Both the position numbers and the translations under genes were made by a program. Below are positions 1,724 through 60,248 of a stretch of DNA of 64,000 bases, in pieces. The number at the start of each line of letters is the position of its first letter. The stretch's first letter is position 1. The notes under the pieces are model-generated. The model ran no database searches and was not told the DNA's origin. It worked only from the letters and a program-made list of their open reading frames with translations. This DNA comes from Alkalicella caledoniensis (GTDB lineage: Bacteria; Bacillota; Proteinivoracia; Proteinivoracales; Proteinivoracaceae), in NCBI RefSeq assembly GCF_014467015.1, contig NZ_CP058559.1, positions 1,550,001-1,614,000 on the forward strand. The letters run 5' to 3'.

Positions 1724-1763
1724 GATACTTACAAAATTGAATATTACCTCACTTCTTAAGATG

Positions 1764-1944
1764 GTGAGGTAGAGGCGCGGTAATTATTAGTATGTAGTTG
1801 AGCTAGGAGTAGCAAAGATTCTACAGAAAGGATTTACCGCCGAAGTGGTCACATGACTCCCCATGTTTCTGCTGGGTCTACAGTTAAGAGCTGTAGGACT
1901 GTCACAATAAGCTATCCCAAGTTTGTTGTGTTGCGCTATCTCAT
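1764..1944 (+). promoter_or_regulatory. Lysine riboswitch (L box) aptamer
   Basis: The order of conserved L-box segments is present: GAGGTAGAGGCGCG, TAGTATG, CTACAGAAAGG, CCGCCGAAG, GCTGGGTCTACAG and GTAGGACTGTCA. P1 forms between GTGAGGTAG (1764-1772) and CTATCTCAT (1936-1944), allowing G-U pairs. The L box binds lysine and turns down lysine biosynthesis or transport genes, which fits the lysA gene directly downstream. A terminator follows at 1986-2013, so control is probably by transcription attenuation. Confidence 0.95.
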
Positions 1945-1985
1945 GTAAGGGAAAGAAGGGGACTTAGTTATGTAGCAATTTATTG

Positions 1986-16991: not shown

Positions 16992-17747
16992 TTATTTAGT
17001 ATATACGAGTATAGCATCTCGTAAAAATTCTGCTGCTCCTGGTTTTCTTCCGTCATAGTAGGCTCTAAACCTCTCGTCGTCCACATACATTTGCGCAAGT
17101 CCAATATGTGCCTCTTTATTATAATCACTCCAGTAAAAAGTAAGCCACTTTTTGTGTAAATGAGCAACCCTCTGTGCTATTTCACTTGACGGATCCTTTG
17201 TCTCCATAGCTAGATACAATGTCTCAATGATCTCCTCAGCTAGCTTTGTTATTTCTTCATGTTCCTCCTCTGTCATGTTCTTTACTTTGTTATTAGACTT
17301 TTCTACAACTTCATTACCATATTTTTCTCTAATCTCTTTACCGTATTCCTTTTCATTTTTATCAATCATCTTTTCTTTAAACCCTTGAAACTTCTCTTTA
17401 TTTGACATATATGTTCCCCCTTTTGTACTTGCTATGGTTTTATCAACATTATCAATTAACAGCACAAGCTGTTTTTTCTTCCTAAGGAGTTTTTCCCGAT
17501 GGTCTATTAAAGCCTTGTATGAGTCAAATGAAGGAGATTCCATAATCTCCTTTATTTGCTCTAGGCTCATGTCCAGTTCCCGATAAAAAAGAATCTGCTG
17601 TAATCTATCTACTTCATTTTGACCATAGATCCTATACCCTGAAGAATTGATTCTTGCGGGCTTAAGAATCCCTATCTCATCATAATACCTTAGTGTCCTA
17701 GAGCTAATACCTGCAAGTTTCCCTAGTTTTTGAACTGTATATTCCAT
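16992..17747 (-). CDS. MerR family regulator with TipAS drug-binding domain
   Basis: The 251-residue protein has an N-terminal MerR winged helix (YTVQKLGKLAGISSRTLRYYDEIGILKPARI, 3-33), a coiled-coil dimer helix (about 75-115) and a C-terminal TipAS fold (about 150-248) with HLHKKWLTFYW and GLAQMYVDDERFRAYYD. TipAS domains bind hydrophobic or thiopeptide antibiotics. Its promoter has the MerR-type 19-bp spacer, so it is probably autoregulated. The gene follows the permease on the same strand but has its own promoter. No exporter responsive to it is obvious besides that permease. Confidence 0.92.
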   Translation of the reverse strand: MEYTVQKLGKLAGISSRTLRYYDEIGILKPARINSSGYRIYGQNEVDRLQQILFYRELDMSLEQIKEIMESPSFDSYKALIDHREKLLRKKKQLVLLIDNVDKTIASTKGGTYMSNKEKFQGFKEKMIDKNEKEYGKEIREKYGNEVVEKSNNKVKNMTEEEHEEITKLAEEIIETLYLAMETKDPSSEIAQRVAHLHKKWLTFYWSDYNKEAHIGLAQMYVDDERFRAYYDGRKPGAAEFLRDAILVYTK

Positions 17748-17820: not shown

Positions 17821-18753
17821 TTAAAATAGTCTGTAGATATACCCTGCAACAATAGCACCTACCATACTAACAGTAACATAAAGAATAAATGTTTTTCTTT
17901 TTACTATTGAAAACACCGCCACCATTGCAGGGATTGATGTAGCTGCACCTCCAATCATAAAGGCTAGGGCCGTTCCCTTATCCATCCCCAGTTCCATAAA
18001 CCCTCTGATAAGTGGTATCGCAGAAATACTACTTGTATACGCAGGTACACCTATCAGTGCAGCGATAATTGGTCCAAAGGGGTTATTTCTTCCTAATAGA
18101 CTTCCTACCCAATCCATTGACACATATCTCACAATTAAAGCCTCTAATAAGAAAGCTACGAGCATGTACTTTCCAACAAATATAGCCATATCTTTAAAGT
18201 TTATTAAAAATTGGAATCCTCTCACTGTTAATAGCTGCCCTTTGGTAAGATTTTCTTCAATTAGGTCCTCTGTTGCAGCAGTTTGATTGTTCCCAAAGTC
18301 CTTTAATATTTGATTATCCAAATATCCTTTGTTAGAAAGGTATAATGTTAGATATCCAGCTACCAGTCCTAAGGATATAGTAGTTAACAACCTAGCAATA
18401 GCCAGTCCTTCTCCTAGCACACCATAGGTTAACACAAAGGTTTCAGGATTCATCAGTGGTGATGCTATCCAAAAAGCCATTATTGGTGCTAAAGGAATAC
18501 CCGATGCTAAAAGTGCAGCTATGGCAGGAATAACGCCACAGGAGCAAAGTGGACTGAAAGAGCCTGCTGCGGTGGCAATTGGTATAGCTGTGTATTTCTT
18601 ATTTTCTAAGGATCTACCTAAAAACCTATCTAGCTTAAATGTTTTTATAGCTGCAGCTATACCTATACCAAAACTAAAAAATATTAGCATTCCTTTTACG
18701 TTAGTATACATAAAATCTATAATATACTTCAAATCTTCTAACATAAATCTCAC
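17821..18753 (-). CDS. ArsP/DUF318-type permease
   Basis: The 310-residue protein has eight or so membrane helices in two related halves, with the family motif GSFSPLCSCGVIPAIAALLASGIPLAPIMAFWIASPLMNPE in the first half and GVPAYTSSISAIPLIRG in the second. Homologues include ArsP (organoarsenical efflux) and YraQ. The paired cysteines in PLCSCG could bind soft metals or thiols. Its upstream DNA carries a 16-bp element nearly identical to one at the MarR gene promoter, so that regulator probably controls it. The substrate is inferred only. Confidence 0.83.
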   Translation of the reverse strand: MRFMLEDLKYIIDFMYTNVKGMLIFFSFGIGIAAAIKTFKLDRFLGRSLENKKYTAIPIATAAGSFSPLCSCGVIPAIAALLASGIPLAPIMAFWIASPLMNPETFVLTYGVLGEGLAIARLLTTISLGLVAGYLTLYLSNKGYLDNQILKDFGNNQTAATEDLIEENLTKGQLLTVRGFQFLINFKDMAIFVGKYMLVAFLLEALIVRYVSMDWVGSLLGRNNPFGPIIAALIGVPAYTSSISAIPLIRGFMELGMDKGTALAFMIGGAATSIPAMVAVFSIVKRKTFILYVTVSMVGAIVAGYIYRLF

Positions 18754-18781
18754 TCCTTAATTTATTTGCAATTATCAACTC

Positions 18782-18797
18782 TTGTATTATACAAGTA
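18782..18797 (-). promoter_or_regulatory. Putative MarR operator at the permease promoter
   Basis: Minus strand TACTTGTATAATACAA, centred on the 15-bp perfect palindrome CTTGTATAATACAAG (18781-18795) and containing a TATAAT -10. It differs at only two positions from the element at 19473-19488. The remaining 18800-18996 stretch shows nothing else recognisable. Confidence 0.6.
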
Positions 18798-18996
18798 ATA
18801 TAAAAAATAAAAAGTCACTTACCCCCCAATTATATTCTTCTGTTTTACTTGGCTACAGCTACCTTTAAAATTTTACTGTGCTGCAACAAATCTTTCTTTT
18901 CTCTAATTTGAAATTCCTCCAGCTAATTGTAAAATTATCATGACTAAACAGCGATTGTTAACAGTTTAGCCATGACTTCCTACCTAAGTCTATACC

Positions 18997-19452
18997 TTAG
19001 CAACAATTAGGATTAACCTTATCAAAGGCTTTTATCAATAGTGAAACAGATCTAAGAACATCATCAATCTGGCCCTCTGGCAGACTATCAACTATCCTTC
19101 TATAATAATCTGATATGGCTAATTCTAGTTTTTCTGCTACCTCGATTCCACCTTGGGTAAGTCTAACTAACACTATTCTTCTATCATCTTCATCTTTATA
19201 TCTCTCAACATATTTATCCCTTACGAGATTGTTAATAAGTCTTGTCATTGTACTTGTTGTGACATTCATTTTTTCACTAAGTTCATTCATTGTTAACTGT
19301 TTGGATTTTTTAAGTTCAATCAAGATGTAGCTTTGTGATGATGTAAACCCATGGGGTTTTATCTGATCCCTTTCAAATAACTGCATAACCCTCACAAGAT
19401 GTTGCACCATTTTCCCAACTTCATCAATACAGCAATCGGGTTTTAGTTCCAT
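18997..19452 (-). CDS. MarR family regulator with terminal cysteine pairs
   Basis: A 151-residue winged-helix regulator with the recognition region MNELSEKMNVTTSTMTRLINNLVRDKYVERYKDEDDRR. A Cys-Cys pair sits at residues 6-7 (KPDCCIDE) and another at the extreme C terminus (NPNCC), unusual positions suggesting thiol, metal or redox sensing. ATG at 19452 is chosen because AAGGAGGG lies 5 bases upstream; a longer frame to 19500 would run through the gene's own -35 box. A palindrome in the promoter spacer suggests autorepression, and the same element sits at the permease. Confidence 0.9.
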   Translation of the reverse strand: MELKPDCCIDEVGKMVQHLVRVMQLFERDQIKPHGFTSSQSYILIELKKSKQLTMNELSEKMNVTTSTMTRLINNLVRDKYVERYKDEDDRRIVLVRLTQGGIEVAEKLELAISDYYRRIVDSLPEGQIDDVLRSVSLLIKAFDKVNPNCC

Positions 19453-19471
19453 AATATCCCTCCTTAATTTT

Positions 19472-19500
19472 ATTGTATCATGCAAGTATTGCATGGTCAA
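19472..19500 (-). promoter_or_regulatory. MarR gene promoter with overlapping operator
   Basis: TTGACC (19495-19500), 17-base spacer, TACAAT (19472-19477). The spacer holds the perfect palindrome CATGCAATACTTGCATG, and TACTTGCATGATACAA (19473-19488) is shared with the permease promoter. Confidence 0.75.
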
Positions 19501-59951: not shown

Positions 59952-60248
59952 CTAGATGTGATCTGTTACTTCATTAGCGCTTACAATATTGTGTGTATGG
60001 ACATGCTGGCCCTTCATAATTAGCTCCGTTGTTCTACCGATAACTTGTCCATATTTGTATACAAGATCATCCTTGTATAATTCAAGGACCGAAAATTTAT
60101 GATAGATAGGAATATCTTGAATTATGTTAACTTCTATTATTTTTTCGTCTACTACAAATGTTGCAGTATCTCCTGACTTAAGCTCGGTAATAGCCACTGC
60201 AACACTATCTTCTTTACTAATTATCAAAGCATTTACTTTTTCTTTCAT
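59952..60248 (-). CDS. UxaA family lyase, small SAF-domain subunit
   Basis: 98 residues, an SAF-type beta domain: NALIISKEDSVAVAITELKSGD, then PIYHKFSVLELYKDDLVYKYGQVIG and HVHTHNIVSANEVTDH, the conserved end of the UxaA N-terminal half (metal-site histidines). Overlaps nothing but lies 13 bases before the large subunit, so one enzyme is encoded in two polypeptides. Confidence 0.88.
   Translation of the reverse strand: MKEKVNALIISKEDSVAVAITELKSGDTATFVVDEKIIEVNIIQDIPIYHKFSVLELYKDDLVYKYGQVIGRTTELIMKGQHVHTHNIVSANEVTDHI

Follow-up and report, generated by a model that had tools for sequence, protein, structure and literature searches.

A cysteine-paired MarR regulator, an ArsP-family permease and a small Cys-pair peptide in a candidate metalloid-efflux regulon of anaerobic Firmicutes

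Introduction

Known arsenic repressors are mostly ArsR/SmtB proteins, and the ArsD metallochaperone, a small Cys-rich cytosolic protein, is proposed to pass arsenic to the efflux machine. In As(III)-responsive ArsRs the arsenic ligands lie at helix ends, which unravel on arsenic binding (PMC11868830). AfArsR of Acidithiobacillus ferrooxidans and CgArsR of Corynebacterium glutamicum use cysteines at the ends of the dimerisation helix (Cys95-96-102) or cysteines shared between the chains (Cys15-16 with Cys55) (PMC11868830). The MAs(III)-selective SpArsR of Shewanella putrefaciens is reported to induce arsP (PMC11868830, PMC9213503), and two cysteines suffice for methylarsenite in this protein (PMC11868830). 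ArsP proteins themselves share a conserved C(S/T)C motif (PMC4435449), and for Paraclostridium bifermentans the way in which arsP is activated is listed as "mechanism unknown" (PMC11653729). In the open literature, to which our search was confined, we found no MarR described as a regulator of arsP or arsM, nor a description of the cassette arrangement presented here or of the arsM-adjacent MarR clade related to it.

Here, we analysed a window of 64,000 nucleotides from Alkalicella caledoniensis (positions 1,550,001 to 1,614,000 of NZ_CP058559.1) in which a MarR regulator and an ArsP-like permease had been noticed to share a promoter sequence.

Results

A MarR regulator with two cysteine pairs lies ahead of an ArsP_1-family permease

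The two genes are encoded on the same strand:

18997-19452, minus strand: marR, a 151-aa MarR-family regulator (PF12802 and PF01047 above cut-off)
17821-18744, minus strand: ArsP_1-family permease, 307 aa (PF03773, 158.8 bits against a cut-off of 32.3), with a central loop free of cysteine

The regulator is clearly a MarR protein (52.7 bits with PF01047 and 51.1 with PF12802, against cut-offs of 27 and 24.6) to which no curated equivalog fits: BilQ, HpaR, FabT, AdcR, OhrR and others all fall far under their cut-offs, the best being BilQ at 53.8 of 125 bits, and none of its 18 NCBIfam and 12 Pfam matches is an ArsR/SmtB-type domain (e.g., NF033788). Translation would start at the ATG at 19452, which is preceded by a good ribosome site, AAGGAGG. 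The preliminary description had placed Cys-Cys at residues 6-7 and at the C terminus; both pairs are present, with the first to be renumbered Cys7-Cys8 and the second, Cys150-Cys151, forming the final two residues. In an AF2 model (pLDDT 88), whose top fold matches are MarR structures with AbfR among them, Cys7-Cys8 is immediately ahead of helix 1 and Cys150-Cys151 is past the last long helix.

The permease scores well above the gathering threshold of PF03773, a family that also includes Cu/Zn and other exporters, and its earlier assignment as ArsP-like is supported both by this match and by the linkage to marR in every cassette described below. It stays under the cut-off of every NCBIfam equivalog, including the predicted organometal exporter SaoE (NF040736, 132 against 325 bits) and the SO_0444 Cu/Zn efflux transporter (NF033936, 104.2 against 300 bits). 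The CSC motif noticed at first sight is found at residues 67-69 and is invariant among window-type permeases, its position in the membrane being assigned by homology only; judged from the sequence, it is the conserved C(S/T)C of ArsP. No solved structure matches the permease by sequence, and its AF2 model is weak (pLDDT 68).

The genome holds two further PF03773 matches, one of them interrupted. The uninterrupted one, a second ArsP_1-family permease at ~3351849 (L083:1465-2478), is closer to SaoE (217 of 325 bits) and carries CGCC in its central loop. The stop-interrupted match at 827573-828079 (L084) reads as two adjacent short permease-like frames of 161 and 179 aa, which may mean that the permease is split and not broken. 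Directly past the window permease on the same strand, a gene at 16992-17747 (minus) encodes a MerR regulator with a TipAS drug-recognition domain; it is probably unrelated because no such gene followed the permease in those relatives that were read. Elsewhere, a lysine riboswitch at 1762-1946 (plus, 107 bits) is the only Rfam match in the window at the gathering threshold.

Both promoters carry the same palindrome

The repeated 16-mer occurs as TACTTGTATAATACAA at the permease promoter (18782-18797, minus) and as TACTTGCATGATACAA at the marR promoter (19473-19488, minus), and its reported 14/16 identity, positions and strands are exact. Exact matches to the degenerate 16-mer number two in the window and 0.00 in 100 shuffles; likewise, the 13-bp core TTGYATNATRCAA has two exact window copies against 0.04 expected. 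Beyond the preliminary description, we found that the 16-mer belongs to an inverted repeat, with a palindrome TANTTGTATNATACAANTA derived from 31 exact sites in cassette loci (including one outside the cassette, L042:14599). The predicted operators of the window are:

18781-18795, no strand: permease-promoter operator, a perfect 7-1-7 palindrome CTTGTATAATACAAG (CTTGTAT-A-ATACAAG) that encloses the -10
19472-19486, no strand: marR-promoter operator, an imperfect palindrome over the spacer and -10
18765-18779, no strand: possible degenerate second operator TTTGCAATTATCAAC, found by eye, 16 bp from the permease operator

The marR promoter reads TTGACC-17-TACAAT, and its operator overlaps TACAAT, the -10, together with the last part of the spacer. 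The permease palindrome encloses a -10, TATAAT, for which the sequence offers no good -35. The overlaps with spacer and -10 originally proposed are thus borne out by the promoter sequences. A second site at the 16-bp step is also present in several relatives (L013, L014, L017). One-mismatch sites at genome position 574490 and at 60073 of the window lie inside coding frames and were dismissed as operators.

The cassette, its operators and its cysteines are conserved among anaerobes

A GTDB genome scan combined with genome searches yielded 16 marR-permease cassettes from 15 anaerobe genomes, the window included. Carriers are Alkaliphilus peptidifermentans (L015), Anoxynatronum (L012), Tindallia (L017), Clostridium punense (L019), several MAGs and others. 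Every cassette has an ArsP_1-like permease gene downstream of marR in the same orientation, either directly or with a small peptide gene between the two; the permease of L014 has a large internal deletion. When one mismatch at most was allowed, the operator core was found within 120 bp upstream of marR in 15/15 testable genes and in 14/15 marR-permease gaps, against means of 0.05 and 0.19 in dinucleotide shuffles of the same cassette sequences. The sole gap lacking a site is that of L041, where marR, peptide and permease genes are closely spaced, apparently as a single operon preceded by two sites. The gap of L040 was too short and was left out of the count; its site overlaps the start of the listed permease frame and, therefore, the true start is probably further in. 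The search for the 16-mer in related genomes, proposed as a check in the preliminary description, thus shows that the operator pair recurs across cassettes, and comparative genomics supports an operator shared by the two genes. Altogether, marR and the permease are almost certainly members of one regulon.

All four cysteines are invariant in an 11-row alignment and in the 15 cassette MarR rows of a wider one; loss of the cysteines among orthologues, which had been named as evidence against the reading, was therefore not observed. Two relatives without the C-terminal Cys pair, L020 and L085, are both without the cassette: L020 has no adjacent permease, and L085 has no operator and another gene between its MarR and a permease fragment. 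A class-wide search around G400 gave one further relative, which has neither the C-terminal Cys pair nor the cassette. Viral contigs contained no relative, and plasmids contained only MarRs of 31-34% identity, mostly from Priestia and Niallia.

A small Cys-pair peptide is a third member of the regulon

Genome-wide (3.7 Mb), the exact 13-bp core has just three copies: one each at marR and the permease, and one at an unlinked peptide gene that the preliminary description had not recorded as a regulon member. The third copy (1138376-1138388) is just past the stop of a 52-codon frame encoding MNKKLTLKDLFKIAKGEDSDCCEREQNKQNCCSSKKTMRDCECTNEEHSCCQ, and a near-match, TTGTAGTATACAA, overlaps the plausible -10 of the peptide gene's own promoter.

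Genome 1138405-1138563 (L039:8405-8563), minus strand, outside the window: intact gene for a 52-aa Cys-pair peptide, with operators on both sides (profile E=2.7e-21)
18745-18996 of the window, minus strand: marR-permease gap, which aligns end to end with the A. peptidifermentans gap

Relatives of the peptide, with an SLK-rich start followed by CC...CC, are encoded between marR and the permease in five other cassettes (L013, L014, L015, L016, L041). Four of the peptides have no NCBIfam match at E<=1 and nothing above cut-off in Pfam, and a fifth has no NCBIfam match at E<=0.001. The peptides do not reach the ArsD model NF033727, whereas the genuine ArsD proteins of L059 and L019 do score. The 52-aa Cys-pair peptide may represent a new family of small metalloid-binding peptides.

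The end-to-end alignment of the window gap with the A. peptidifermentans gap scores 127 against a shuffle maximum of 102, and other gaps aligned more weakly. Therefore, on sequence grounds, the window gap probably holds a decayed copy of the peptide gene, of which an intact copy persists elsewhere. The separate peptide gene with its operators resembles what would be left of a duplicated cassette; two cassette copies, one with a damaged permease, are likewise present in the MAG of L013 and L014.

A reciprocity that the preliminary description had not recorded links the peptide to the permease. Where a peptide gene is present, the central loop of the permease contains 0, 0, 0, 0 and 1 cysteines (the window, with its peptide in trans, L013, L015, L016 and L041); where no peptide was found, it contains 2-7 (L012, L017, L040, L042, L019, L059-L063). 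Where the script overran the loop, cysteines were counted visually on the printed sequence. A whole-genome profile search found no peptide in seven of the genomes without one, and for L059, L061 and L062 the reading covered the gap only. Because the permease tree explains the exchange with as few as two changes, the reciprocity is suggestive and not proven. It suggests that peptide and Cys-rich loop share one job; that this job is that of a carrier is a close call, which we leave slightly on the doubtful side.

Arsenic genes lie beside most sister regulators and several cassettes

What does the regulator sense? The closest MarRs outside the cassettes group in a sister clade (98/100 split), and nearly all of its rows carry CC at the C terminus and another CC where helix 1 ends (E-[AF]-[SAT]-CC). 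A TTG-N7-CAA element, which has the operator core in common with the cassettes, is located ~50 bp ahead of the start codon in 10/10 sister genes examined. Most sister marR genes are directly ahead of arsM, in several cases followed by an arsN1-like gene, and the clade is apparently an arsM regulator of its own kind. Curated cut-offs are exceeded by ArsM of L035, L036, L038 and L052 and by the ArsN1a next to L053. Sister MarRs preceding arsM with similar operators were seen in L035, L036, L038, L052 and L054, and also in L009, L010 and L061:527-967.

Several cassettes are themselves in arsenic neighbourhoods: (i) L059 directly follows arsR-arsD-arsA; (ii) L019 adjoins arsN1, an ArsR, an arsC-like gene, acr3 and arsD; (iii) L061 adjoins a sister MarR, a truncated arsM and an arsN1-like gene; and (iv) L060 adjoins an ArsR-like gene and a second ArsP_1-type permease. 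Such neighbours were seen only with Clostridium-type permease cassettes (28% identity to the window permease) and at none of the window-type cassettes. In the order of G404, an arsM-like gene is present in 4/6 cassette genomes vs 36/226 genomes overall. The window genome lacks acr3 and a close arsM, and the idea that every cassette genome produces methylarsenite was rejected, arsM being absent from this genome and most of its closer relatives. The arsM-like genes of G404, G520, G517, G524, G572, G578 and G579 contain one in-frame TGA and are probably selenoproteins; NCBIfam already includes selenoprotein ArsM models.

Given the position of sister regulators next to arsM and arsN1, and of some cassettes within ars clusters, a metalloid is favoured over a general oxidant. 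We consider it very likely that the inducer is a metalloid or metal, and likely that it is arsenic in particular.

Discussion

From the computed features (operators and their conservation, invariant cysteines, linkage and reciprocity) we infer repression, ligand, cysteine geometry, substrate and direction of transport, and hand-off as follows. The MarR protein would bind the 15-19 bp palindrome over the -10 of the marR, permease and 52-aa peptide genes and repress all three. The Cys pairs flanking the dimerisation domain would capture a thiol-reactive trivalent metalloid, in all likelihood arsenite or methylarsenite before any other, and the repressor would be released. In MarR dimers the chain ends pack together in the dimerisation domain and, therefore, the Cys pair of one chain could meet the pair of the other. 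The permease would then export the compound through a membrane path with the CSC motif, and the peptide would buffer the compound or pass it to the permease, as the equivalent in trans of the Cys-rich loop in cis. Because ArsR ligands lie at helix ends and two cysteines are sufficient in SpArsR, release of repression by a trivalent arsenical is the leading model. A metalloid-efflux regulon with a Cys-paired MarR repressor, trivalent (methyl)arsenic as the most likely signal, and an ArsP-family permease with a Cys-pair carrier is thus our preferred and reasonably probable reading.

Alternatively, inducer and cargo of the same regulon could be a soft metal ion (Cu(I), Zn, Hg(II) or Cd), with the Cys pairs as the metal site. 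Vicinal cysteines bind many soft metals, and the nearest NCBIfam models of the permease include SO_0444 and SaoE. However, both models are far under cut-off, arsenic genes are linked to the sister regulators and to several cassettes, and the cassettes that were read had no recognisable copper or mercury gene next to them, so that we regard a soft metal as unlikely. The Cys pairs might also be converted to disulfides by oxidants or disulfide stress, in the manner of two-Cys MarRs, with the permease exporting a product that is oxidised or electrophilic. Redox cysteines are well known among MarR proteins, AsrR being an example (PMC3410868), and AbfR structures match the AF2 model; yet adjacent Cys-Cys at both chain ends and the linkage to arsenic genes suit metalloid capture better, the carriers are anaerobic and no oxidant-defence gene was recognised in the cassettes, which makes a thiol redox switch quite improbable. 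Finally, the probability that the repeated 16-mer is a chance or promoter-composition effect rather than an operator is negligible: although the core includes the -10-like TATAAT/TACAAT and occurs 73 times in the genome with one mismatch allowed, the site is kept at both promoters in diverged genomes, the 15/15 and 14/15 counts make chance very unlikely, all three exact copies lie beside regulon genes, and coincidence is rejected by the window shuffles and the cassette-wide operator counts.

The preferred metalloid-efflux regulon has several implications. Because its arrangement is conserved in many anaerobes, several times beside arsenic-resistance genes, the cassette very probably represents an undescribed way of sensing and expelling arsenic compounds, as far as sequence comparison can tell. 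If so, the MarR clade adds a second family of arsenic regulators and could supply a missing step in anaerobic methylarsenite biology, such as the activation of arsP in P. bifermentans. With the operator sequence, additional members of the regulon can be sought in a simple way, the Cys-paired MarR could find use as a component of biosensors, and the peptide/loop exchange can be tested directly as a case in which a carrier protein would replace a transporter segment. A wider reading, which we put forward tentatively and hold to be somewhat doubtful as a whole, is that export (an ArsP-type permease) and methylation (arsM, arsN1) are controlled through related operators by two sister MarR clades, which share the C-terminal Cys pair and differ in their second one, with 45-55 aa peptides as a trans carrier replacing the Cys-rich loop, in an undescribed arsenical-response system of anaerobic Firmicutes.

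How does this cassette compare with described systems? The role proposed for the Cys-pair peptide is similar to that of ArsD, and no sequence relation between the two was found (no NCBIfam match). Campylobacter jejuni ArsP, which effluxes methylarsenite, shares the PF03773 family and the C(S/T)C membrane motif with the window permease (PMC4435449); in contrast, the window permease is predicted to be MarR-regulated and is paired with a Cys-pair peptide. The arsM-adjacent MarRs of the same phylum are a sister clade with the C-terminal CC and TTG-N7-CAA before the gene, but their second pair is at the end of helix 1 rather than before helix 1, and they precede arsM rather than a permease. AfArsR and CgArsR likewise have arsenic-binding cysteines, including adjacent Cys-Cys, at the ends of the dimerisation helix or between chains; since they have the ArsR fold and other Cys positions, any likeness to the modelled MarR would be convergent. 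SpArsR offers a parallel in that it is a repressor responding to trivalent organoarsenicals (a ligand only inferred for our regulator) that has few cysteines and controls an ArsP permease. SpArsR, however, belongs to the ArsR/SmtB family and has two cysteines at one place, whereas the regulator described here is a MarR with pairs at both chain ends.
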